Positions 5,352-38,933 of a DNA stretch of 47,903 nucleotides are shown here, in pieces (positions within the stretch are counted from its first letter, which is position 1; each line of letters starts with the position of its first letter). Location of the stretch: assembly GCA_018658305.1 (NCBI GenBank), contig JABHVM010000035.1, positions 1 through 47,903 on the forward strand, in the 5' to 3' direction. The notes below the pieces were generated by a model, which was given only the letters and a program-made list of their open reading frames with translations, did no database searches and was not told where the DNA came from. Source of the DNA: Thiotrichales bacterium. Lineage in GTDB: Bacteria > Pseudomonadota > Gammaproteobacteria > GCF-002020875. The position numbers and the translations under genes were made by a program.

Positions 5352-6455
<1,104 letters not shown>

Positions 6456-6459
<4 letters not shown>

Positions 6460-7826
6460 TGCACATCCTTCTCTTCGATAGCGCTCTTCTTCTTAACCTC
6501 TCCACCAACTATAACTGTTACCATCTCTGCTGGGCGAACTCTGCGTTTAAATGCATCTTTAATACTGGCCGCACTCACAGCATTGATTTTACGATTAAAA
6601 TCATCCAGATAACTGTCTGGAAGTCCGTAAAAACCGATCACCCCAAGATAGCTCACAATCTTTTTATTGCTATCTATACGCAGCGGAAAACCTCCGGTTA
6701 TATTCTTCTTAGAGTTTTCAAGGTCATCTAACGCTGGACCATGCTCAATAAAATCTGCGATAGTTTTACGCAACACCTCTAGCGCCTCATCTCTACTCTC
6801 ATTTTTGGTTTGCAATCCAGCTTGGAACGGACCAGCTCTGCGCATTGGGGAGAAGTAACTATATGCACTATATGCAAGCCCTCTATTCTCACGCACTTCT
6901 TCAGAAATTTTAGAGACTAATCCACTTCCACCAAGAATATGGTTCCCAACATAGAGATCAAAATAGTCTATATCTCCTCGCTTCACTACAGGATGCCCAA
7001 GCAAAATATGGCTCTGTACTGATGGATACTCTATATATTCTTCCTCACCAGCTTGCGCAGTTATTGGAGCAGCAATTTCTGCCGCTGCTTCACCAGCAGG
7101 CAGTGCTCCCACAACTTGCTCAGCTATCTCCTTAGCTCTCCCTCTATCAACAGCGCCAACAATTGCTACCAATGCATTATTGCCAACATAGTAACGAGCA
7201 TGGAATGATTTAAGATTATTGCGTTTTATAGATTTAACGCTCTGCTCTGTCCCACCAGATGGCTCTGCATAAGGGTGGGAGCCATACATCATCCGAAAAA
7301 ACTTTTTACTCGCGATAGTTGACGGAGACTGCTTCTGCGCTTGAATCCCTATAAGTTGGCGATTTCGCTCCCGCTCAAACGCACTTTCTGGAAAATATGG
7401 GCGATGAATAAGATCAGCCGTAACCTCCAGAGCTGAATTTAAGAGCCTCTCATCACTAAGGCTACGCAATGAAACAACAGCCATATCTCGGAGAGAGCTT
7501 GCACCAAGAACTGCCCCTAAACTGCCAATAGTCTCAGCAATAGCCTCTTCACCTCGCTCACCAGCGCCAGCGGATAGGAGAGCATTAGTCATAGATGCGA
7601 TACCGCTCTGCTTGCCATCCCGCGCGCTTCCTGCATCAAATATAACTCTAACATCCACCATCGGTAGATCTGGAGTATGCACATAGAGAACTGTAGCTCC
7701 ATTTGAAGTACTCCAACGCTCAATATCTGGGCTTGCGCTCGCTTGCTGCAGAGAGATAGCACTAATTAGAGATAGCAATCCTATGGTGGATTTTAAAAAA
7801 TTTCCCTGCTGTGATTTTCTATTCAT
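6456..7826 (-). CDS. M16 family peptidase-like protein, non-catalytic partner
   Basis: 456 residues with an N-terminal signal peptide (LLSLISAISLQQASA). Two insulinase-like domains are present, but the zinc motif HxxEH is absent: the equivalent region reads GSARDGKQSGIASMTNALL. This is the usual non-catalytic half of a two-gene M16B peptidase, where active and inactive subunits build a clamshell chamber. It overlaps the catalytic subunit gene by 8 bases and rsmD by 4. Likely periplasmic; the substrate is unknown. Confidence 0.88.
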
Positions 7827-9204
7827 TACTATCTCCCTCTGAGCTAGGTGCCGGCTTTGATGACTCTAATGGTAGAGGGTCTAGAATAGCTGTTGTTACT
7901 CTATCTAATATAATATATTTATTTGCTACAGCCATAACCTGCTCCGCAGTCACTTTACGCACTAGTTCTGCATAACGATCTGCCTCTCTCCAACTCAGAC
8001 CAACCGTCTCCAACTCACCCATCTGCATCGCCTGATAAAAGACTGAATCTTGTTCGAAAACTTTATCTGCTACAACCTTAGCCTTTACTATATCCAGCTC
8101 TCTCTTAGTCACGAGGTTTATCTTTAGCTCTTTCAACTCTTGAAGCAGTGCACTCTTAATCTCAGCAACAGTGTGTCCATCACTTGGAACTCCATCAACT
8201 AAAAATAGAGTTTGTAGCCTATCATAAAGGTCATAGCCAGCGCCGGCACTTGCTGCTATCTCTGTCCCTCTTACTAAATGCTTACCTAAACGAGAACTAT
8301 CTCCACCATCCAAAATATAAGCCATAACCTCTAACGCATAAGGCTCCCACTCCTCCTCTGCCGTCACTACAGAGGGGGTTGGAAAGCCCATAATTAGATA
8401 TGGAAGCTTTGCTGGAACCTTTACCACGACCTCCCTTGGGCCCAACTGCTCAATCTCAACTCTTGGTTTTGGCGGCACAAGGTCTGAACGCTGAAGTGGG
8501 CCATAATATTTTTTAGCCATCTCAATAACCGCAACAGGATCCACATCACCAGCAATTACTAGAGTTGCATTATTAGGTGCATACCACTTCTCATACCAAC
8601 TACGCATATCTGCAACAGTGTAGTTCTCAATATCATTCATCCATCCTATTACTGGATTATGGTATGGGCTCGTCTGAAATGCTGTTGCCATAAACTGTTC
8701 ATAGGTGAGAGAAGTAGGCTTATCATCGGTGCGCATTCGGCGCTCCTCTTGCACTACCTCTCGCTCTTTTATGAACTCCTCTTCAGGTAGCGTGAGATTA
8801 CGCATTCGGTCTGACTCAAGCTCCATACTAATTTCCAAACGACTCTTCTCTAGCCGTTGAAAGTATGCAGTATAGTCAGCTCCAGTAAATGCATTTTCAC
8901 GCCCTCCATTCACAGAGATGATTTCAGAGAACTCATTAGGGCCATGCTTTTCCGTCCCCTTAAACATCATATGTTCTAACATATGAGAGAGGCCGGTAAT
9001 TCCTTCAACCTCATAACTCGCTCCAACTTTATACCAAATTTGTGAAACTACTACGGGAGCACGATGATCCTCTTTGACCAGAACTTTAAGTCCATTACTA
9101 AGCACTACTTCGGTTACCGTCTCCTTCTCAACAGCAGTTACCGTAGTCGTTACCAACAACAGTGCCGCTGTGTACAATGAACAACTTTTACTTATCAAAC
9201 TCAT
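7819..9204 (-). CDS. M16 family zinc peptidase, catalytic subunit
   Basis: The zinc site HMLEHMMFKG gives HxxEH, with the downstream glutamate in ELESDRMRNL. A signal peptide follows the chosen start (MSLISKSCSLYTAALLLVTTTVTA); an in-frame extension back to 9273 adds 23 residues without a better start. About 461 residues, normal for the processing-peptidase-like bacterial M16B group. It pairs with the overlapping non-catalytic gene. Expected to work in the periplasm on small proteins or peptides. Confidence 0.93.
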   Translation of the reverse strand: MSLISKSCSLYTAALLLVTTTVTAVEKETVTEVVLSNGLKVLVKEDHRAPVVVSQIWYKVGASYEVEGITGLSHMLEHMMFKGTEKHGPNEFSEIISVNGGRENAFTGADYTAYFQRLEKSRLEISMELESDRMRNLTLPEEEFIKEREVVQEERRMRTDDKPTSLTYEQFMATAFQTSPYHNPVIGWMNDIENYTVADMRSWYEKWYAPNNATLVIAGDVDPVAVIEMAKKYYGPLQRSDLVPPKPRVEIEQLGPREVVVKVPAKLPYLIMGFPTPSVVTAEEEWEPYALEVMAYILDGGDSSRLGKHLVRGTEIAASAGAGYDLYDRLQTLFLVDGVPSDGHTVAEIKSALLQELKELKINLVTKRELDIVKAKVVADKVFEQDSVFYQAMQMGELETVGLSWREADRYAELVRKVTAEQVMAVANKYIILDRVTTAILDPLPLESSKPAPSSEGDSNE

Positions 9205-9305
9205 CACTTTTATTAATCCTATTTTATGCACTCTTTTAATCCAATAAACCCATAATTGTACCATTAACAGCATCCACCCGAAGTTTCTCTACTGCTTATT
9301 TGCCC

Positions 9306-9908
9306 TTATCGTAACTGCTTCCTTATCTTCTTTATTAAGCGGGGTATAAATGCAACTATTGCAATCAAAGTTAGTGCTATCATAATATTTTGCACTAACG
9401 ACTCACCACCTTTAAACGCCTCTGATCCCGCATACCCTAAGTATGTATAGGCAAAAGCACCTGGCAGCATAAATATCCAAGTTGCAACAATGTAATGAAG
9501 CAGTGGAATTTTAGTTAATCCCAATACATAATTAAGAATAGTAAATGGAAACAGTGGTACTAAGCGAGTAAAAGCGACAAAGCGCCAACCTTCACTATCT
9601 ACTCCATCCAATATCTTTGTAATTTTATCTCCTGCGCGCTGCTTCACCCAGTCAGAAACTAAATAACGAGATATTAAAAATGCAAACGAAGCTCCAATTG
9701 TTGCCCCAGTAAGGTTAATCAGAGAGCCATATATTGGACCAAACAGAGCTCCTCCTACTATAGTTAAAACTGTACCTGGAATGAACAAAACTGTTGCCAG
9801 CGCATAAAGTAAGATAAAAAATAGAGGTGCCCACAACCCCGCTCTCTCTAACCAAAGCTCAACTTGATCTTGGTTAATGTAGTCGCGATAGCTCCATACT
9901 ACAGCCAC
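9306..9908 (-). CDS. TVP38/TMEM64 (DedA-like) membrane protein
   Basis: About 200 residues with five or six membrane helices. The family signature is clear: LFIPGTVLTIVGGALFGPIYGSLINLTGATIGA and FVAFTRLVPLFPFTILNYVLGLT. The only conventional start is the GTG at 9908, but the frame stays open upstream and encodes more of a hydrophobic helix (KKIITTLLFGVLV). A GGGGG lies just ahead of an ATT codon, so an AUU start near 9945 is possible. Genes of this family are often next to or fused with mercuric-reductase-like flavoproteins, one of which lies at 29435. Exact function is unknown. Confidence 0.85.
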   Translation of the reverse strand: MAVVWSYRDYINQDQVELWLERAGLWAPLFFILLYALATVLFIPGTVLTIVGGALFGPIYGSLINLTGATIGASFAFLISRYLVSDWVKQRAGDKITKILDGVDSEGWRFVAFTRLVPLFPFTILNYVLGLTKIPLLHYIVATWIFMLPGAFAYTYLGYAGSEAFKGGESLVQNIMIALTLIAIVAFIPRLIKKIRKQLR

Positions 9909-9948
9909 TAGAACACCAAATAAGAGAGTAGTTATAATTTTCTTAATA

Positions 9949-11913
9949 TTATACCCCCTTTTTTCTACTATTCATAGGCAGTACCACTATCATCTTCATC
10001 CCTTTACCAACGCCAGAAGATTCTGCGTTAATAGACCCTCCAATACTTGTTACAAAGTTGGCGACTGAATGCAGACCAAATCCACTACCACCTTTTTTCC
10101 CACTCTTCCCAAAGGTGAATATCTCACTAATTTGCTCTTGGTTATAACCAGACCCACTATCTTCCACGCTTAACTCGAAGCTATCCTTATCTAATTTTAC
10201 AGTTTTCACGATAATTTTACCGCTCTCACCACTATGCGTGGTCTGCTCAGCTATTGCCTCAATACTATTTTTAATCAGGTTCAAAAGAAGTTGAATTAAT
10301 GGGTTTCTTGGTAGATTAACAGAGCCAAGTTTGGGATCCATTTCCACTTCGACAGAAACTTTAGATTTATCTATCTTATCACTTATAAGAGCAATTACAT
10401 CATCAAACACGGACTTCATATAAAATTCAGTTGAGTAGCTGGAAGGGCGTGAAGCACTCTGTTGTATTGCGAGAATAGAGCCTATATGCTCAATTGAGTG
10501 AGTCAATTTATTAAGAGAGCGATCTTTCTCAATATCCTTATGCCCCCTTTTAAGGGCTGCTACCGTTTTCTCGATAAACTCTCTGTAATCTAAGTCTATA
10601 TTCGGATCTTCTGCCACCTTTTTAATTAGCAGATAAATTCTATACAAGGAGTAGACCTGCTTCTCAATACGCAAGATATTACCGTTCATACCTGTAATCA
10701 CATTTCCAACATTGTGCAATACGGAAGCTCCCATCTCTGCAATTCCAGCTTGAAATGCTGCATACTGCTCTTGCTGTTCTGCACGAGTCCGCTGCTTTTC
10801 AACCACCGCTCTAATCTTTTGTTGTGACTCTGCCATCTGGTTGAATCGATCTGAAAGATCTCCAACCTCATCTGCACTCAGGCGTAGACTACGCACCTCA
10901 TGCTCTCCATCTCCATATTTCTGCATCACCTCTGCAAGGCGGCGCACTGGGCGAGTGATGGTTCTAGAAAAGTACCAACTAAAGAGAGAGAAAAGTAGCA
11001 GAGTTCCCACTCCAATCACAAATATCTCTGTTCGTAACTCATGTAGGGGCTGCTCAACAATAAAAGCAGGAATTGTGACCACAATCATAACTCCTAAAGA
11101 TGATATAGGATGCCCCATCCCAAGAATATCATTCCCTCCTACTTGAAAACGGACAACCTTCATACTGTGTCGATTGCGACTATCCTGTGTAGAGATTTTT
11201 TCACCAATCCAAGAAGAGGCTGGATGCCCTCCATCTGGAAAATGGTGCAAAATATTTTTTCCAGAGTGCTGTTTCGTTCCTGCCAATAAAACAGATCCAT
11301 CTCTCTGAACTAAACCCACCCCAAAATTCTTTGGAAGATAGTGAGAAAATTGTTTGCGAAGCGTCGCCAACGGCACAGTTGCAACAAGCGCCCCTTCGAT
11401 CTCATCAAAGTAGTCGGTAGTTAACAGCCCCAAGTCAACCAACTCCTCACCATCTCTACTTTGATATGGAGCACCCATCTGAAGTTGATTTGGTTCTGCT
11501 ACTGCTCTCCTCCATAACTGCTCAACTCTCTGTTGATTTATCTCTATACTCTCCTCTGCTCCTCCAGACCATGCAACCTGTTGCACTCCTTCGGCATCCA
11601 AATATACTAGCGAGTAAAAGCTCTCTCGATACTGTTGAAAAAGTTGCTTAACTATTCCTTTCTGACGATTTTGCCTGTAGTGCACAACAGAGTCTGAGCG
11701 TAATATCCGCTCCATATCATCTGTTCTACGCTCAAAGTGGTGCTCCACTGTGCTCTCAATAGCCTCCACCGTATTATGCAACAGTTTAGAGTTAAGATGC
11801 TCTATCTGTTTTGCCATCATCCCATAACTCATCCCACCCAACAGTGCAATAAGTGTAAGCACCAAAATTGTTTGCCCACTTAACAATCGACCTTGTAACG
11901 AACTAAACCTCAT
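9949..11913 (-). CDS. Membrane sensor histidine kinase, Cache-like sensor and HAMP
   Basis: 654 residues. Helix at about 13-32, a large periplasmic domain (about 35-290) with Cache-like features, a second helix at about 297-315, HAMP to about 365, coiled coil, then an unusual phosphoacceptor box with His400 in VLHNVGNVITG, and a C-terminal ATPase domain (NLIKNSIEAI, EDSGSGY, GKKGGSGFGLHS). It overlaps the upstream binding-protein gene by ATGA (4 bases), so the two are co-translated. No response regulator is adjacent. The HNxGN box also occurs in the second kinase at 37026, and the two are clearly related in that region. Confidence 0.88.
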   Translation of the reverse strand: MRFSSLQGRLLSGQTILVLTLIALLGGMSYGMMAKQIEHLNSKLLHNTVEAIESTVEHHFERRTDDMERILRSDSVVHYRQNRQKGIVKQLFQQYRESFYSLVYLDAEGVQQVAWSGGAEESIEINQQRVEQLWRRAVAEPNQLQMGAPYQSRDGEELVDLGLLTTDYFDEIEGALVATVPLATLRKQFSHYLPKNFGVGLVQRDGSVLLAGTKQHSGKNILHHFPDGGHPASSWIGEKISTQDSRNRHSMKVVRFQVGGNDILGMGHPISSLGVMIVVTIPAFIVEQPLHELRTEIFVIGVGTLLLFSLFSWYFSRTITRPVRRLAEVMQKYGDGEHEVRSLRLSADEVGDLSDRFNQMAESQQKIRAVVEKQRTRAEQQEQYAAFQAGIAEMGASVLHNVGNVITGMNGNILRIEKQVYSLYRIYLLIKKVAEDPNIDLDYREFIEKTVAALKRGHKDIEKDRSLNKLTHSIEHIGSILAIQQSASRPSSYSTEFYMKSVFDDVIALISDKIDKSKVSVEVEMDPKLGSVNLPRNPLIQLLLNLIKNSIEAIAEQTTHSGESGKIIVKTVKLDKDSFELSVEDSGSGYNQEQISEIFTFGKSGKKGGSGFGLHSVANFVTSIGGSINAESSGVGKGMKMIVVLPMNSRKKGV

Positions 11914-12752
11914 CGAGCTGGCACCATTCCCGCTGCTTCAATAATCTCTCTGCCAGCCAGAGAGTAGATATAATTTAATAATTTTTTCTCCATACTATTC
12001 TCAGCAAGATTCAATGCCCCCCGTATTACCAGATAGAGTGGCGTTACCATCTTTGACTCTGCAAGTGGCACACCATCAATGGTCAACACTGTAAGTTGGT
12101 ATTGCTGCGCCCAACTATTAGGAAGGAAACCAATAGTTTGACGATGCTCTCTAATAGCAGCAGCTGTTTGGGGAGTGGTAAAGAATATTTTAGCATGATG
12201 ATCTATAAGCTCAAACTCTGGGATATGCTGCTCTAAGACTGTACGCGAAGAGTCGCCTTCTTCTCGATTGATTGGATAGATCTTCTCTTTGGTTGGTGTA
12301 CGCTGACTCAAAGGGCGGAGTTCATTCCAATCACGCACTTCACCACTATAAATTTGCAAAATCTGCGTTGAGGTAAGGTTACTAATTGAGCTCAATTTAT
12401 TGTGCGTTGCAAATACAACAGGAGAGTATGCAATTAAAAATTGGTGAATTTTTTGGTTATCGCCATTATGATTTCCAGCATTAATCTCTTCATCTGTCAG
12501 AGCGCGCGCTGTTCGTGCCATAGAGACCTTACCAAGAATCAAGGCATCTACTCCACCACCTGATCCAACACTATCCGGTACGCTAACCTTATGTTGAGGA
12601 AAACGCTTCTCAAAAAAAGTGGCTACTGTTCTCAGTAATGACTGGGAGTCGCCTGTTCCTGCAATAGTCAAGCTCTCCACAGCCCCTGCTTCTCCACCAA
12701 ACAGTATCATACTCGCAAGCAGGAGTGACTTTATATGCTTCTGTTTTAACAT
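11910..12752 (-). CDS. PstS-like periplasmic substrate-binding protein
   Basis: 280 residues with a signal peptide (SLLLASMILFGGEAGA). The fold cues are those of phosphate-binding proteins: LTIAGTGDSQSLL at the start, VGSGGGVDALILGKVSMARTARALT, and EEGDSSRTVLEQ. PstS proteins bind phosphate or similar oxyanions. No ABC permease or ATPase genes follow; instead a sensor kinase overlaps it, so it probably feeds a sensor rather than a transporter. With the arsenosugar genes starting 226 bases away on the other strand, arsenate or phosphate sensing is a fair inference. Confidence 0.75.
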   Translation of the reverse strand: MLKQKHIKSLLLASMILFGGEAGAVESLTIAGTGDSQSLLRTVATFFEKRFPQHKVSVPDSVGSGGGVDALILGKVSMARTARALTDEEINAGNHNGDNQKIHQFLIAYSPVVFATHNKLSSISNLTSTQILQIYSGEVRDWNELRPLSQRTPTKEKIYPINREEGDSSRTVLEQHIPEFELIDHHAKIFFTTPQTAAAIREHRQTIGFLPNSWAQQYQLTVLTIDGVPLAESKMVTPLYLVIRGALNLAENSMEKKLLNYIYSLAGREIIEAAGMVPAR

Positions 12753-12933
12753 AAATTATTCTGTTGCCCTATTGTTCATACACTTTTTCTCTATAACTCA
12801 CTAGTTGAATACAAGCTGCACATACAGCAATGATCTCATAGCTGTTCTGCTTAATCAACTCGTTAAATTTTTAAAAAATACCACGCATTATAATAGCGAT
12901 AAAAAACATCTAGATCATATTATATAGTACAAT

Positions 12934-12947
12934 TGAACGCTTGTTCA
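12934..12947. promoter_or_regulatory. Operator site 1 of a shared 14-bp motif, upstream of arsS
   Basis: TGAACGCTTGTTCA: half-sites TGAAC and GTTCA spaced by 4 bases. A -10-like TATAGT ends about 5 bases upstream and the arsS ATG is 30 bases downstream. The same motif occurs before four other transcription units in this window, including the intergenic region of a tetR gene. A TTG at 12933 would extend the arsS frame through the operator and is therefore unlikely to be the start. Confidence 0.62.
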
Positions 12948-12977
12948 CTGCATAAGATAGAAAATAGACAAAAAACG

Positions 12978-13964
12978 ATGATCGATAGTTACCCACATCT
13001 AAAAAATATATCCTTCCCCCCTATTGCCAGAGATAAGCTGACCACACTTCAGGTCAATTTAGGATATCGTTGCAATCTTAGCTGCACCCATTGTCATGTT
13101 AATGCTGGACCCAAACGAAATGAGATGATGGATAGTGGAACAGTAGATACGCTAATTCAGCTCCTAGAGAATAGAGAGATCAAAACTCTTGACTTGACTG
13201 GTGGTGCACCAGAACTCAACATACATTTTCGGCGCCTTATTGAAGCCGCCTCCAAGATGGGGGTTCATGTCATTGACCGCTGTAATTTAGTTATTCTGGA
13301 AGAGGAGAGGCAAGAGGGGCTCGCCCAATTTCTTGCAAAACAACAAGTAGAGATAGTCGCCTCTATGCCCTGCTACCTACAGGAAAATGTAGATTCGCAG
13401 CGAGGTAAAGGGACATTTGATGCGAGTATTCGTGGTTTAACTCTTCTTAACAGCTTAGGATATGGAGTTAATGGAAGCGGGCTGTTGCTCAACTTAGTAT
13501 ACAATCCACAAGGAGCACACCTCCCTCCTGCTCAAAATCTCTTAGAGACAGACTACAAAAAACATTTAGCTAAACATTACGGAGTTAAATTTAATCAACT
13601 TCTGACCATAGCCAATCTTCCTATTCACCGTTTCGGCAGTCTGCTCCTCTCTAAGGGAGAGTTTGATAACTATATGGATACGCTGCAAGAGGCTCATCGC
13701 ACAGAGAATCTCTCTACAGTTATGTGTCGCTCAATGGTTAGTATTGACTGGCAAGGAGTGATCTATGATTGCGACTTTAATCAGATGTTAAACTTACCTA
13801 TTAAACATTTGGCTGGCGAGAGTTTACAAATTCAAGACCTTCAAAACTCAACTCTTTTAGAGCAGCAAATTCAAGTAGCTGGACACTGTTTTGGTTGTAC
13901 TGCAGGTCAAGGCTCTAGCTGTGGTGGTGCTCTTAATGAAACTTTAAACGAGGCTCTTGCTTGA
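12978..13964 (+). CDS. arsS: Arsenosugar biosynthesis radical SAM protein ArsS
   Basis: 328 residues from the ATG at 12978. The iron-sulfur motif CNLSCTHCHVNAGP (Cys32, 36, 39) is a CxxxCxxC radical-SAM site, and the surrounding TLQVNLGYRCNLSC...DLTGGAPELN is characteristic of ArsS. The C-terminal cysteine-rich part (GHCFGCTAGQGSSCGGAL) is also typical. In known systems ArsS adds the 5'-deoxyadenosyl group to dimethylated arsenic, the key step to arsenosugars. It overlaps the following glycosyltransferase gene by 4 bases and is preceded by operator site 1. Confidence 0.9.
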   Translation: MIDSYPHLKNISFPPIARDKLTTLQVNLGYRCNLSCTHCHVNAGPKRNEMMDSGTVDTLIQLLENREIKTLDLTGGAPELNIHFRRLIEAASKMGVHVIDRCNLVILEEERQEGLAQFLAKQQVEIVASMPCYLQENVDSQRGKGTFDASIRGLTLLNSLGYGVNGSGLLLNLVYNPQGAHLPPAQNLLETDYKKHLAKHYGVKFNQLLTIANLPIHRFGSLLLSKGEFDNYMDTLQEAHRTENLSTVMCRSMVSIDWQGVIYDCDFNQMLNLPIKHLAGESLQIQDLQNSTLLEQQIQVAGHCFGCTAGQGSSCGGALNETLNEALA

Positions 13965-14632
13965 TATCTATTATTATCCCCACCATAAATGAGGATGAGG
14001 TCATTGAGAACACCCTGCGCCCTCTACAACCACTACGCAACTTAGGTGCTGAAGTTATTCTAGTAGACGGTGGCAGCAGTGACCAGACTCAGCATATAGC
14101 GGCCCCTCTTGTAGATATCTGGATAGACTCTCCAGCAAAAGGACGAGCTCTGCAGATGAATCTTGGCGCTGCACAGGCTAATAGAGATATCCTCTGGTTT
14201 CTGCATGCAGATACAGTTATTCCAGAACATGCTGAAAGATATATTATAAATACTCTTAAAAACAGAAGATGGGGACGATTTGACCTAAAATTAAGCGGAG
14301 ATAACTTTCTACTACGAATAGTTGAATGGATGATCAATCACCGCTCCTGCTGGAGTGGAGTTGCTACAGGAGATCAAGGAATTTTTCTCACTCAAAAACT
14401 ATTTAATAAATTAGATGGTTTTCCAGAAATTGCCTTGATGGAAGATATAGCATTGAGCCGTAAACTTAAAAAAGTTGCCGCGCCTGGCTGCATCAAACAT
14501 CCTCTCATCACCTCTAGTAGACGCTGGGAGAAGAATGGTATAGTTCAAACCATTCTATTAATGTGGTGGTTGCGTTTTAGTTATTGGCTGGGAGTTGATC
14601 CAGAAAAACTGGTTAAGCTCTACCATACATAG
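13961..14632 (+). CDS. Arsenosugar-associated glycosyltransferase (TIGR04283 type)
   Basis: 223 residues, a family 2-like GT-A domain: SIIIPTINEDEVIENTL, LVDGGSSDQT, the metal site LHADTVIP and the family segment RRWGRFDLKLSG. It starts at a TTG that overlaps the arsS stop (TTGA), so translation is coupled. Members of this family are regularly found beside arsS and a second, DUF2064-like transferase, as here, and are thought to build the sugar part of arsenosugars. The exact acceptor is not known. Confidence 0.85.
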   Translation: MISIIIPTINEDEVIENTLRPLQPLRNLGAEVILVDGGSSDQTQHIAAPLVDIWIDSPAKGRALQMNLGAAQANRDILWFLHADTVIPEHAERYIINTLKNRRWGRFDLKLSGDNFLLRIVEWMINHRSCWSGVATGDQGIFLTQKLFNKLDGFPEIALMEDIALSRKLKKVAAPGCIKHPLITSSRRWEKNGIVQTILLMWWLRFSYWLGVDPEKLVKLYHT

Positions 14633-14649
14633 CTCTATTAACAAAAAGT

Positions 14650-15363
14650 ATGCTGATCTCACTAATTATCTTCTCTAAAGCTCCAATCCCTGGCTACGCA
14701 AAGAGGAGGCTTATCCCATCCATAGGAAAACAGAGGGCTGCAGAGTTGCAACAAGAGATGACTACAGCGATGGTAACTCAGGCGCTTGCTGCTGACATCG
14801 GAGAGACGAATCTATTCTGTGCCCCAGATACAACTCACGAACTCTTCCAAAACTTAGCTCGCCAACACTCCATCTCATTAGTTACTCAGCAGGGAGAGAG
14901 TCTTGGAGATAAGATGTCACATGCTATTGAGACAACATTCACCTCGAGCAAAGATACGCAGAACAGCGTTGAGGCAGTTATATTAATGGGGAGCGACTGT
15001 CCGCAACTAAATAAGGAGCAGCTACTGAGAGTTTCTACAGAATTAAAAAAGCACGAGATCGTTCTCATTCCAGCCACCGATGGCGGATATGTGTTGATAG
15101 CTATGCGCAACCACTACCCTACTCTATTTCAAAATATAAACTGGGGCAGCGATCAAGTGATGAGCACAACCATACAGAGAATAGACGCACTCGCCGTCTC
15201 TTGGAGCGCACTACCTGCCTTGACAGACATAGATTGTGCAGAGGATCTATTCTGCCGCATAATAGACCTCACTCTCTACGGCAATCCCTCTTTTCCAGCT
15301 ACGGAGTGTAATGGTCAACGGTTTAGATCCGTATTAAAATTGGAGTGTGAGATCACCGTTTAG
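14650..15363 (+). CDS. Arsenosugar-associated glycosyltransferase (TIGR04282/DUF2064 type)
   Basis: 237 residues of the DUF2064 nucleotidyl/glycosyl-transferase-like fold: IIFSKAPIPGYAKRRL at the start, MGSDCPQLNKEQL and PATDGGYVLIAM. It lies 17 bases after the first transferase and is last in the arsS operon. It converges on msrAB with 17 bases between. The C-terminal 30 residues go somewhat beyond the usual end of the family. Role inferred from constant neighbourhood with arsS. Confidence 0.83.
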   Translation: MLISLIIFSKAPIPGYAKRRLIPSIGKQRAAELQQEMTTAMVTQALAADIGETNLFCAPDTTHELFQNLARQHSISLVTQQGESLGDKMSHAIETTFTSSKDTQNSVEAVILMGSDCPQLNKEQLLRVSTELKKHEIVLIPATDGGYVLIAMRNHYPTLFQNINWGSDQVMSTTIQRIDALAVSWSALPALTDIDCAEDLFCRIIDLTLYGNPSFPATECNGQRFRSVLKLECEITV

Positions 15364-15380
15364 GTTCGGCTGTATTGATC

Positions 15381-16529
15381 TCACTTAAAGAGCGATAGAA
15401 ACTCTGCATATCCTTCCAGCTCTAACTTCTCTACTGGAACAAAACGGAGTGAAGCTGAGTTCATACAGTAACGCAGCCCTGTTGATTCTGGGCCATCTGG
15501 AAAAACATGACCTAGATGAGAGTCTGCTATCTGGCTGCGGATCTCCGTTCTGGTTGAGAAGAATCCTTTGTCTACCGTTTCGACCACTATATCAGCTGCA
15601 ATGGGTTTGCTAAAACTGGGCCATCCAGTGCCAGAGTCATACTTATCAAGCGAGCTAAAAAGTGGTTCGCCTGAGACAATATCCACATAGATCCCTGCCT
15701 CTTTGTTGTCCCAATAGATGTTATCAAATGCCCTCTCAGTACCATCCTCTTGAGTCACTTTGTACTGGAGTGGCGTGAGCCGTTGGCGAAGTTCAGCCGT
15801 ACTTTCATCCACCTGATAATTTGAACTTTTCTTCTCAGCTGTTTCTGTCTGCTTCTCTGTCGATGGTGAGTCATTCCAAGTGGCAGCAATAAACTGATCT
15901 CGCCCTGAACCTTGACGGTAGCGTTTATAATGAATCGTGTTCTTTTGAGAGTAATCTTGATGGTAATCTTCTGCTGGATAAAAAGTTGTTGCTGCACTAA
16001 TTTCCGTCACTATAGGTCGGTCAAATTTTCCTGAACTCTCTAACGCCGCTCGTGAACGCTCCGCCATTTGACGTTGCCCCTCACTTGTGTAGAAAATTGC
16101 TGAACGGTAGTGATCCCCTCGATCAACGAATGAACCATCTGCATCCGTCGGATCAATCTGCATCCAGTAGACCTCTAGTAGTTTCTCATAACTAATCAAA
16201 TCAGGATTGTAAACTACTTCGATCGACTCCAGATGATCGGTACTGCCTGAGGCAACCTGTTGATAGGTTGGGTTCTCGCTTGTTCCCCCACTATAGCCAG
16301 AGGTAACCTTCTCCACACCAGAAAGATTTTCAAATGGGGGCTCCATACACCAGAAACAGCCACCTGCAAAAATTGCTTGCTCACTCTCTGTCTCACTCAT
16401 ACGATTCTGCTCCCTATTTTTATTATCATTCCAATCAACCACCTTACTTGCCGTGACAGATAACCCAATCACCGTTAGCACGATCGCAATAGATGAAAAG
16501 TTGCCTCTAAATATATTCAGTCTCAACAA
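15381..16529 (-). CDS. msrAB: Fused peptide methionine sulfoxide reductase MsrA/MsrB
   Basis: 382 residues. An N-terminal hydrophobic segment (about 12-27) suggests export or anchoring. The MsrA domain has the catalytic [12 protein letters not shown] (Cys58). The MsrB domain has DSGTGWPSF and the catalytic [11 protein letters not shown] (about Cys355). The two CxxC zinc pairs of many MsrB enzymes are missing ([11 protein letters not shown]), so it is the zinc-free form. It repairs both S and R sulfoxides of methionine, probably in the periplasm. It overlaps arsM by 7 bases, tying repair to arsenic methylation. A methionine-rich protein at 20885 is a plausible client. Confidence 0.95.
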
Positions 16530-17578
16530 CAGCTACCGCCTGAACCAGAATCTTCTTTCTGTGCCGACTGATCAAAAGGGATCTCTGTGCCACATCCCAA
16601 AAATACTCCATAATGAGTCGACCAGTCGCCGTAAAAGTCAAAATGCTCGCTAAAGCGACTATCGTTAAGCATGCGGTAACTATTACCGCAGACTGGCTCT
16701 ATCTTTCCCTTCTCAAAATTGTGCCCGCTATCCAGTTCAAAATTATCGGGGTGATGTTCAACCGTTCCTCGATAACGGACTGCCTGCCCATACTCTTCAC
16801 AGCTCCCTTCTAACGCCTCAATCTTAAACAGTCGGTAAGTGGCAGAGTAGAATTTGTGCGTGCCCAACATCTTCTCAATCTCTGGATTATCGATAGTGAG
16901 AGGACGATCTTCAACTAAACGTGGATCGGAAAACCCGCTCTCTTTTGCCAGTGTCAAAAAATCATTCCAATAGAGCGCACCACTTAGACACTCACCATAG
17001 AGCAGTGGATCTTTTACCAACGCCTCTGGCACTCTCCTCTCGGAGTAGACATCTGAGAAGTAGAGCTCACCCCCAGGTTTGAGCAGTCGCCACGCCTCTT
17101 GCAGTACCGCTGCTTTGTCTGGTGATAGGTTAATGACACAGTTAGAGACGATAATGTCAAAACGTTCATCTTCCAACCCTAGCTCATCCAACTTTTCGAT
17201 ATAGCCTTTATGAAAAGTGACATTGGACTGACTGTAACCATAGCGATCAGCATGCCACTGAATATGTTGATTGGCTACCTCCAGCTGCGCATCCGTCATA
17301 TCTACACCGACAACAGATCCCGACTCTCCAGTTAAGCGCGCCAGCAAAAAGCAGTCACGCCCAGAGCCACTACCAAGATCCAAAATATTCATTCCCTGTA
17401 ACTGTTGGGGTGCAACTAGACCACAGCCATAATATTTGGCAGCGACCTCATCATGAATATCTGCCATCGCCTCCTTTAGATAAGCTGGCATCGTGCTGCC
17501 GGTGCTGCATGCATCGGTTTGTAGGTCGTTGCTGGTGACTAAAATTTCCCCGTAGTACTTCTTGACTTCATCATGCAT
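16523..17578 (-). CDS. arsM: Arsenite S-adenosylmethionine methyltransferase ArsM
   Basis: 351 residues. SAM-binding motif [17 protein letters not shown], then [14 protein letters not shown]. Conserved cysteines of arsenite methyltransferases are visible: one in [10 protein letters not shown], one in [11 protein letters not shown], an early one in TDACSTG, and a C-terminal GGSCC pair that could hold arsenite. It methylates As(III) toward dimethylarsenite, the substrate of ArsS. The long C-terminal domain fits the arsenosugar-type ArsM. It is followed by an overlapping msrAB and faces the arsS operon. Confidence 0.92.
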
Positions 17579-36163: not shown

Positions 36164-36998
36164 ATGATAAAACTACACCCTAAAAAAGCAGCACATTGCC
36201 TCACTATTTTCTTGATGCTTGCGCTCCCTTTATCTCTCTGCTGAAGAGCGCGTATTGAGTTTTGGCGTTGTGCCGCAGCAGGCAGCTAAAAAATTGGCAA
36301 AAAAATGGGGCCCTATCTTTCAGTATCTCAGTAAGAAGAGCGGAGTGACGATCCGTTTTAAGACTGCACCTAATATCCCAGAGTTTGAGCGTCGTCTCAG
36401 TCAAGGGGAGTATGATCTCGCCTATATGAACCCTTATCACTATACTGTGTTTGGCGATAAACCAGGCTACCGCGCTTTCGCAAAACAGAAGAACAAAAAG
36501 ATTAAAGGGATCATGGTAACCCGTAAAGACACTCCTCTAACCACTCTTAAAGCATTGGAGGGTCGTAAACTTGCCTTTCCCGCGCCAGCTGCCTTTGCTG
36601 CAAGTATTCTCTCCCGCGCCCACCTGAAAGAGATCGGCGTTAACTTTACGCCAAAATATGTTAAATCGCATGATTCCGTCTATCGCGCGGTGGCAAAAGG
36701 ACTCTTCCCTTCAGGTGGTGGTGTGATGCGTACCTTTAAAAACAGTGAACCAGAGATTAGAGCGCAGTTGAAAATATTCTGGACTAGCAATACTTTCACC
36801 CCTCACGCTTTTGCGGCACATCCTGATTTAGACCAAGCAACCGTTGAGAAGATTCAGCAAGCCTTGTTAGGAATGAATAGTGATCCAGAGGCGGCGGCAC
36901 TGGTCAAAGCGATCAGCTTTAAGGGGTTTGAAGCGGCAACCTATTCCGATTGGAATGATGTGCGTGAGTTGAAAATTGAGCTGTTGGATGATCTATAA
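36164..36998 (+). pseudogene. PhnD/SsuA-like phosphate-type binding protein, frameshifted in the signal peptide
   Basis: An ATG at 36164 starts a good signal peptide (CLTIFLMLALPLSL) that hits TGA at 36142+100 (36242-36244). The rest of the protein is intact in another frame: AEERVLSFGVVPQQAAKKLAK, YDLAYMNPYHYTVF, LAFPAPAAFAAS, PSGGGVMRTF. Adding two bases in the CTCTCT tract at about 36233-36239 would join the two into one normal PhnD-like protein. A TTG at 36219 could start the mature part without export. It is followed by a sensor kinase 27 bases on. Either decayed, phase-variable, or a sequence error. Confidence 0.72.
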
Positions 36999-37025
36999 AG
37001 AGCTGCTCATCGCTGATTAACGATA

Positions 37026-38933
37026 ATGTCTTTTCGTCTCAAGACAATCTTCGGCGTTGCGCTGATTGAAATTGTTCTGCTGACATTCTTAGTCTGGAAC
37101 AGCATGGTGTTGATGCGCAGTTCTGGCGAGGCGCAGCTTATCCAGCGTGCGGAGACTACCTCATCACTATTTGCCTCAATGGTGAAGGATCCTGTCCTCT
37201 CCTACGATCTTGCAACACTTGAGACTTTCATCATCGAGTTGATGAAAAATAGAGGTCTCGCCTATGTGCGAGTGTATGATCAAGATCAACTACTCTCTTC
37301 AAGCGGTGACAAAAAGTTGCTGCTGCGTCCATTTCAAGCCGATAGTGCACTTGAATGGGTGAATGATGCTGTGTTTGATATTAGTGCAATTATCAGTGAG
37401 TCTGGTCAGGTATATGGCCATATCGAGCTGGGGCTTTATACCGAAGCGCTACAGCAGCGGCTATCATCTGCAACCCTTAAAACTAGTTCGTTGGCACTGC
37501 TTGAGATTCTGCTCTCTGCGCTCTTCTCATTTATGCTGGGAAGCTGGCTTGTGCGTCAATTGGAGGTATTACGCTACGCTTCGAGTGAGATTGCACAGGG
37601 CAAGCTAGGAGTGCAGATACCGGTACTAGGAAGTGATGAGATTGCCGAGACCGCGATCCACTTTAACCAGATGTCAACGGAACTGCTGCGTGCCAGTGAT
37701 GCGCTTAATTTTCTTAATAGATCACTCGAAGATAAGGTGGTAGCTCGAACCCAAGACCTTAAACAGAGTAATGATCAGCTCTCCTCTATTATGGAGAATA
37801 TGGGGGATGCGCTGTTTGTGTTGGCATCTAACGGCGAGGTCATTGTGAGCAATCCTGCGGCGGAGATTATCTTTAGCAACAGTATCGGTAAGCAATTCAT
37901 CTCATTTTTTCCAGATGAGTTAACTGCCACGCTTGAGAATCTACTTTCAACGGCACAGCTCTGCAGCGATACACTGTTTTTCTCTGATGCGGCGCAAGAG
38001 AAAGTGGTGTTAGAGCTTACCTTAACGCCACTGCCTGTTGTAGATGATCATCGACACACCCTGGTCTTGGCAAGAGATATCACCCAGCAGCATGATATGG
38101 AAGAGAAAGAGCAGATGTTAGCCTTCCAGTCAGGCGTTACAGAGATCTCTGTCAGTATGATGCACAATATTGGAAATATCCTTGCAGGGGCAAATGGAAA
38201 GCTGTTACGGATCAAAAAAGCAGGAACTTCTCTTGAGAGGATGTCAGTTTTTATTAAACAACTCTCAACACAAATAGAGACATTTTCAACTGAAAAGCGT
38301 TTCTCTACGCTGCAGAGGGTGGGAGAGATGTTAAGTAATGTTATTGCAAGTGAGATAACCAAGCCAGTGAATGAGGTTGAGCAGAAAACTTATGATATTG
38401 CAAATATCGTCACTCAACAGGAGAGAAGTACCAGCACGATCCACCAGCTCTCTCGTATCCATCCACGCAGCTTTATTAAAGAGGCGCTTACTTCGCATCA
38501 GAAAATATTAAAGAGGCAATCCATTGTGGTTGAAATTGATGTAGAATCTGGTTTGAGCGAAATCTATTTCCAAAGAAACCAACTATTAATAATGCTAGAG
38601 GCACTTCTGCTGAATAGTATCGAGGCGATCTCTGCCCACAATCAGCCCGAGGGCGAGGTGCTAATCAGCTTTAAACGCCAACAGCGTCATAAAAAAAGCG
38701 GGTTTAATATGTTGATCGAGGATAATGGGATCGGTATAGCAGAGGTGCATATCAACATGTTATTTACCCCTGGTTATAGCACGAAGCCAGAACATAGGGG
38801 GAGCGGCCTACATGCTAGTGGTAATTTCATACATAGTATCGGTGGCACAATTAAAATCAATAGTGAGGGTATCAGTCACGGCGCAGTGGTGGATATTTGG
38901 TTACCTAATTTAAAACCTGTTTCAGCGTCATGA
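37026..38933 (+). CDS. Membrane sensor histidine kinase with HAMP and PAS-like domains
   Basis: 635 residues. Helix at about 8-29, periplasmic domain to about 150, second helix about 155-175, HAMP to about 225, PAS-like domain about 250-355, phosphoacceptor His380 in MMHNIGNILAG, ATPase domain with LLLNSIEAI, EDNGIG and HRGSGLHASGNF. The box MHNIGN and its neighbourhood match the kinase at 9949. It follows a PhnD-like gene, as the other kinase follows a PstS-like gene. Signal probably delivered by the binding protein; no response regulator is next to it. Confidence 0.88.
   Translation: MSFRLKTIFGVALIEIVLLTFLVWNSMVLMRSSGEAQLIQRAETTSSLFASMVKDPVLSYDLATLETFIIELMKNRGLAYVRVYDQDQLLSSSGDKKLLLRPFQADSALEWVNDAVFDISAIISESGQVYGHIELGLYTEALQQRLSSATLKTSSLALLEILLSALFSFMLGSWLVRQLEVLRYASSEIAQGKLGVQIPVLGSDEIAETAIHFNQMSTELLRASDALNFLNRSLEDKVVARTQDLKQSNDQLSSIMENMGDALFVLASNGEVIVSNPAAEIIFSNSIGKQFISFFPDELTATLENLLSTAQLCSDTLFFSDAAQEKVVLELTLTPLPVVDDHRHTLVLARDITQQHDMEEKEQMLAFQSGVTEISVSMMHNIGNILAGANGKLLRIKKAGTSLERMSVFIKQLSTQIETFSTEKRFSTLQRVGEMLSNVIASEITKPVNEVEQKTYDIANIVTQQERSTSTIHQLSRIHPRSFIKEALTSHQKILKRQSIVVEIDVESGLSEIYFQRNQLLIMLEALLLNSIEAISAHNQPEGEVLISFKRQQRHKKSGFNMLIEDNGIGIAEVHINMLFTPGYSTKPEHRGSGLHASGNFIHSIGGTIKINSEGISHGAVVDIWLPNLKPVSAS

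Follow-up and report, generated by a model that had tools for sequence, protein, structure and literature searches.

A gene for a PstS-like solute-binding protein (SBP) overlaps a sensor kinase gene beside the arsenosugar genes of a Thiotrichales bacterium. Does this SBP feed a transporter, or does it present a solute to the kinase, and which solute would that be? The stretch of DNA analysed here (47,903 nucleotides, called the window) is part of contig C32 of a 1.65 Mb genome, which is 95.1% complete and lies in 96 contigs.

The locus and its two genes

The SBP gene (11910-12752, minus strand; 280 aa, ATG start) precedes the kinase gene on the same strand (9949-11913; 654 aa, ATG start). According to the original prediction, the two genes overlap by ATGA and sit 226 bases from arsS on the opposite strand. 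Both points were borne out, with the bases 11910-11913 (minus strand) shared and with 225 bases between the SBP start and the start of the divergent arsS (ATG 12978, plus strand). A longer reading frame gives TTG 12933 as an alternative arsS start. The arrangement of SBP and kinase is more than chance, because it recurs in other genomes. The features of the locus are as follows.

9306-9908, minus strand: VTT-domain membrane protein, PF09335 94.4 bits; 40 bases downstream of the kinase
9949-11913, minus strand: transmembrane sensor histidine kinase; HAMP 43.1 bits and HATPase_c 60.4 bits, both over cut-off
9970-10305, minus strand: HATPase_c (residues 537-648) with N box, DSGSG and GSGFGLH, by Pfam and motif reading
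10714-10716, minus strand: probable phospho-acceptor His400 in VLHNVGN, a role suggested by the LHNxGN motif
10825-10971, minus strand: HAMP domain (residues 315-363), by Pfam
11044-11811, minus strand: periplasmic double-Cache (dCache) sensor domain (about residues 35-290); dCache_1 33.2 bits, below the cut-off of 45
11910-11913, minus strand: ATGA overlap, SBP stop and kinase start with four bases in common
11910-12752, minus strand: PstS-like SBP; Pfam PF12849 (PBP_like_2) 93.3 bits, cut-off 27
12681-12752, minus strand: probable signal peptide (residues 1-24) by reading of the sequence; the pLDDT is low over residues 1-20
12978-13964, plus strand: neighbour, arsS, arsenosugar radical SAM protein; TIGR04167 455.7 bits, cut-off 300
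13961-14632, plus strand: neighbour, TIGR04283 arsenosugar glycosyltransferase, 275.6 bits
14650-15363, plus strand: neighbour, TIGR04282 arsenosugar glycosyltransferase, 193 bits
16523-17578, minus strand: neighbour, ArsM-like arsenite methyltransferase; NF008823 185.9 bits, below the cut-off of 263

The kinase consists of an extracytoplasmic sensor domain, HAMP and HATPase_c. The AlphaFold2 model of its sensor, built from nine alignment rows, had a pLDDT of 81.9, and the top Foldseek matches were dCache ligand-binding domains (e.g. 5ave and 3c8c). No HisKA match was obtained with Pfam in the kinase. The LHNxGN motif is kept in 11 of the 12 kinase loci read. As a separate observation, this kinase core is much expanded in the congeners G001, G002 and G005 (24, 41 and 19 matches, versus 8 in the own genome).

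No response regulator gene was found beside the kinase, and the next genes encode the VTT protein and two M16 peptidases. The Rfam search and the tRNA scan gave no match, and the promoter and terminator scans were no better than shuffles. No relative was found in the viral contigs searched.

Transport genes and transducer partners

The original prediction stated that the pair stands without transporter genes, which held. No permease gene was found in 5352-17578 by reading of the ORFs and Pfam on the main ORFs. Genome-wide, the best PstB match reached 228 bits (cut-off 343) and belongs, by reading of the genes, to an amino-acid ABC operon, and the best PstA match reached 21.1 bits (cut-off 193). 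A complete pst operon in the own genome was ruled out by these sub-cut-off scores, and likewise no pst operon lacking its own PstS was found elsewhere in this genome. PstA and PstB are likely missing, which is not proven because of the completeness and the number of contigs given above. None of the six genomes of the genus has PstA over cut-off, and five of them have a Pit transporter. PstA does exceed its cut-off in all four other genomes in which an SBP homologue occurs. Beside the amino-acid ABC operon lies a long UvrD/Rep-like helicase frame (L018:6052-9330), seemingly with an intein-like insert by reading.

The distribution of the SBP was analysed at three scales. No SBP orthologue was found in the five congeners at E <= 1e-10, and the pair is thus present in one of six genus genomes. 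Four other genomes with an SBP homologue (33-36% identity) came from a class sample of 369 genomes, in which the own genome is counted. GTDB r220 was then scanned with an alignment of SBP homologues, which gave 26 named loci, four of them the contigs of the class sample. Partner classes were assigned from reading frames, motifs and Pfam. In 25 of the 26 loci, the SBP has a membrane transducer or HAMP protein as its neighbour: the partner is a kinase in 13 (L028, L029, L030, L032, L033, L035, L042-L046, L049, L052), a chemoreceptor in 8 (L036-L039, L041, L048, L050, L053), a GGDEF-EAL protein in 3 (L031, L034 and L051, where the class of L051 rests on a divergent neighbour) and a HAMP protein whose output class is not evident in L040. 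No evident transducer was found beside the SBP in L047. Four-base overlaps also occur in L028, L029 and L030. Among the named loci, L042 is from Desulfospira joergensenii and L041 from Desulfosarcina alkanivorans, both culturable.

A separate phylum sample of 398 genomes gave 31 places. One is the own locus, 8 score at least 187 bits and 22 lie at 140-158 bits; 21 of these 22 became loci. All eight higher-scoring places have a transducer next door, with HAMP and/or kinase; six are kinases, and the other two have HAMP with no MCP signal or one below cut-off. PstC/PstA-like genes follow (by reading) in 12 of the 21 lower-scoring loci; 7 are solitary, 1 is paired with a kinase and 1 is unclear. 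The single kinase-paired locus of this class has a GTGS motif. By this split of partners, a motif change from GST/GSS to GTG[D/S/A] in PF12849 accompanies the switch from a permease to a transducer as neighbour. The SBP is one of a family of PstS descendants, which most likely have gone from transport to signalling. No description of a PstS-derived family with exchanged outputs and an altered pocket was found in the literature searched, and the family is apparently undescribed so far.

Other PF12849 genes also adjoin transducers, three in the own genome and four in congeners. In L008:4994-7806, a PF12849 gene and a GGDEF protein gene overlap by ATGA, with the receptor gene first. Two further PF12849 genes of the own genome (L010:3953-6625 and L011:6579-10604) adjoin chemoreceptors. 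The SBP frames of L011 and C4 each contain a stop. The congener proteins (L100, L101, L102, L103) belong to other subfamilies and are encoded upstream of histidine kinases. The weak PF12849 match on C78 is a CbbR-type LysR protein by reading and was excluded from the count of paired SBPs, and the sub-cut-off match at C37:28620 was left out as well. The matches on C11 and C75 are apparently two ends of one gene, from their common translation.

The co-variation of SBP and sensor was quantified by a mirror test of the two distance matrices. L052 (a fragment, also left out of the SBP alignment) and L047 (without a partner) were omitted, and for L037 and L041 the partner was taken from a start further inward. 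The correlation was r 0.855 for 25 pairs, and none of 5000 permutations reached it. It was similarly high within subgroup A (r 0.864, 9 pairs) and subgroup B (r 0.85, 16 pairs), with 0/5000 permutations each. For the 13 kinase partners, r was 0.871 between SBP and sensor, versus 0.315 between SBP and HATPase core (65/5000 permutations). Part of such a correlation can stem from a history that the genes have in common. The HATPase core lies within the same polypeptide as the sensor and so controls for this, but only in part. Most likely, the SBP is inherited together with the dCache-type sensor while the output module is exchanged, as the two sets of distances suggest.

The genes, the folds, the absence of transporter genes, the family-wide pairing and the co-variation are all results of computation. 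We consider it highly probable that the window pair is a two-protein receptor, in which the SBP would be a co-receptor of the kinase dCache sensor rather than the feeder of a transporter. That the SBP serves the kinase, as originally predicted, is very likely, because its pairing with transducers across the family and its co-variation with the sensor speak for it far more strongly than the single locus does. In the mechanism that we propose, the PstS-fold SBP would be exported and capture a small solute, and in one of its loading states it would dock on the dCache domain. HAMP would relay the change to the LHNxGN/HATPase core, which would signal to a response regulator encoded elsewhere. In the family, SBP and dCache-type sensor would stay constant, and the output would be swapped among kinase, chemoreceptor and GGDEF-EAL protein. 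The unpaired L047, the lack of an adjoining response regulator gene and the lack of a HisKA match are points against the co-receptor model. Cache domains often bind ligands themselves, which also counts against it.

The pocket, its ligand and the arsenic context

The AlphaFold2 model of the SBP had a pLDDT of 91.5. Its nearest folds are PstS proteins, the best being the phosphate-binding protein 4gd5_A (Z 25.9, rmsd 3.4, 235 residues aligned). The SBP scores far below the PstS equivalog cut-offs (TIGR02136, 80.5 versus 206.6; TIGR00975, 29.4 versus 205). The phosphate contacts of E. coli PstS are T10, F11, S38, D56, R135, S139, G140 and T141 (PMC10846223). Only S38 and R135 are identical in the window SBP, and T141 is conservatively replaced by Ser. 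The other changes are T10 to Gly, F11 to Asp, D56 to Ala, S139 to Asp and G140 to Ser. Over 26 members (the window and 25 loci, L052 left out as a fragment; three MAFFT modes agree), the columns hold Gly in 26 (T10), Asp in 19, Ser in 5 and Ala in 2 (F11), Ser in 25 (S38), Ala in 25 (D56), Arg in 26 (R135), Asp in 25 (S139), Ser in 25 (G140) and Ser in 23 (T141).

The Pst-operon PstS of G132 also deviates at several of the E. coli contacts, D56 among them, so the loss of Asp56 alone is not telling. The Asp at the S139 position, and mostly at that of F11, argues against a plain dianion held in the E. coli style, as far as aligned residues can indicate. The ligand is probably an anion, given the kept equivalents of Ser38 and Arg135. 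It would seem not to be plain phosphate or arsenate bound in the E. coli way. The guess of phosphate or arsenate as the ligand is thereby weakened, with only two of the eight contacts kept, and it retains some ground in the phosphate-uptake genes that stand beside arsenosugar genes in four relatives. A plausible, if tentative, reading is that the SBP family is a signalling-only branch of PstS. Its pocket would have been rebuilt on the new Asp35 and Asp167 together with the kept or new Arg80, Arg83 and Arg163, making a portable SBP-dCache sensing cassette on kinase, chemotaxis and c-di-GMP outputs. The common ligand would be a so far unsensed solute other than phosphate, perhaps an organic or zwitterionic oxyanion.

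A different reading takes the pair as an arsenate or phosphate sensor of the arsenosugar locus, in which, as with ArrX or AioX, the kinase would tune arsS, arsM and the glycosyltransferases. It draws on the PstS fold of the SBP and on the position of the pair, divergent from arsS. In G003 and G004, a VTT gene and then Pit-DUF47 adjoin arsM-arsS. In G132 (L099), pstSCAB is divergent from VTT-arsS, and in G437 (L150), arsS, VTT, two glycosyltransferases, arsM and pstSCAB form one cluster. The VTT gene downstream of the window kinase has its homologues next to arsS in G132 and G437, and the window ArsM-like protein is 76-82% identical to the arsM adjoining arsS in G003, G004 and G005. The SBP-kinase pair, between VTT and arsS, thus stands in the slot of phosphate uptake in relatives, and from these four genomes the slot beside arsS carries a phosphate/arsenate theme. 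Arsenic islands that include pst and phn genes have been described (PMC3834237). In L036 and L038 of subgroup B, a gene for Porin_O_P (a phosphate-selective porin) is divergent from the SBP gene.

Against this reading, the pair occurs in one of the six genus genomes and arsS in all six. All 10 genomes tested (six of the genus and four with the SBP) have arsS, which adjoins the SBP only in the window and lies on a different contig from it in the four others. By tblastn, no arsS was found in the flanks of the 26 named loci (up to 8 kb per side, several shorter), nor in those of 9 further loci. The expected co-occurrence with arsS in other genomes was therefore not seen, and it was rejected as a general rule. 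The recast pocket, an SBP without Cys for arsenite and a Pho box scan score below chance also speak against an arsenate or phosphate sensor. We regard such a sensor as unlikely, and we keep it in consideration because the pair occupies the slot of the relatives' phosphate-uptake genes. The original prediction of a dedicated oxyanion sensor next to arsenic genes is unsupported so far. Another kinase gene, with a Tll0287-like sensor, is divergent from arsS in the congener G002 (L094:821-2530).

Still less probable is that the dCache domain has a ligand of its own to sense, with the SBP just modulating it or adding a second signal. Some Foldseek neighbours of the kinase sensor are amino-acid-binding dCache domains, which fits this idea; the strong co-variation of SBP and sensor does not. 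RxWY is the amino-acid motif of dCache domains, and it was not seen by eye in the 9 subgroup-A sensors (A5 alignment). That the SBP feeds a distant transporter, or remains as a scavenging relic next to a kinase with which it has no link, is very improbable: a pst operon could fall in a gap of the incomplete assembly, but PstA stays under cut-off throughout the genus, Pit is present in five of its six genomes, and transducers accompany the SBP across the family.

Relation to known systems and meaning

The preferred co-receptor reading describes a mechanism of a known kind, because SBPs are known to present ligands to receptors of all three sorts, kinases, chemoreceptors and c-di-GMP enzymes (PMC9602780, PMC11113362). 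In LuxP-LuxQ and HptA-HptS, a periplasmic SBP presents the signal to the tandem-PDC sensor of a kinase (PMC8534201). The window pair resembles them in combining an SBP with a double-PDC/dCache kinase. In phosphate taxis of Pseudomonas aeruginosa by CtpL-PstS, a transmembrane receptor is likewise stimulated by a protein of the PstS fold (PMC4926252). In that case PstS is a subunit of the transporter itself, whereas the window SBP has no transporter and changed phosphate contacts. Compared with PstS as defined by TIGR02136 and TIGR00975, the window SBP shares the fold and parts of the sequence, but it has low scores, a recast pocket and no PstA/PstB over cut-off in its genome. The known ligands are AI-2 for LuxP-LuxQ and glucose-6-phosphate for HptA-HptS, and to our knowledge LuxP and HptA are not PstS-like.

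The arsenic sensors are a further comparison. AioX binds arsenite with a cysteine, Cys106, whereas the window SBP has no Cys in its 280 residues. In AioX-AioS-AioR, ArxX and ArrX, the SBP gene stands beside a sensor kinase gene and the SBP senses rather than transports (PMC5908839). The window pair likewise has an adjacent sensor kinase gene. AioX and ArrX are PhnD-like (PF12974), whereas the window SBP matches PF12849 and otherwise weak relatives only; the AioX-AioS-AioR cluster includes a response regulator gene, and none follows the window kinase. Neither AioX nor ArrX was among the 46 PDB sequences matched by the A2 profile. They were also absent among the matches listed by VIA-align and Foldseek, which is no proof of a different fold. 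Membership of the SBP in the AioX-like group was rejected on the Pfam family, the lack of Cys and the 46 PDB matches.

A second SBP-kinase pair lies in the window at 36219-38933 (plus strand), where a PF12974 SBP (PhnD-like, 217 bits) is followed by a HAMP-PAS-HATPase kinase. The best PDB match of this SBP is the arsenate-binding ArrX (E 6e-14), and this pair is nearer to the AioX/ArrX family than the PF12849 SBP-kinase pair. It has counterparts in three of five congeners (75-83% identity). In 36164-36260, its signal peptide is in another frame than the mature part, by a frameshift in the gene or the assembly.

In mechanism, the single locus is ordinary, whereas the SBP family lends itself to a ligand screen with a clear aim and at low cost. 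PstS-like proteins often carry annotations as parts of phosphate transport. If the family is sensory, this annotation would be wrong for it, and genomes without Pst would no longer be credited with phosphate uptake. A ligand screen on one SBP would in that case account at the same time for kinases, for chemoreceptors and for c-di-GMP enzymes of bacteria linked to sulfur, sulfate or symbiosis. Because outputs are swapped behind an SBP-sensor pair that stays constant, the family also offers a natural test of how an SBP switches a dCache domain.
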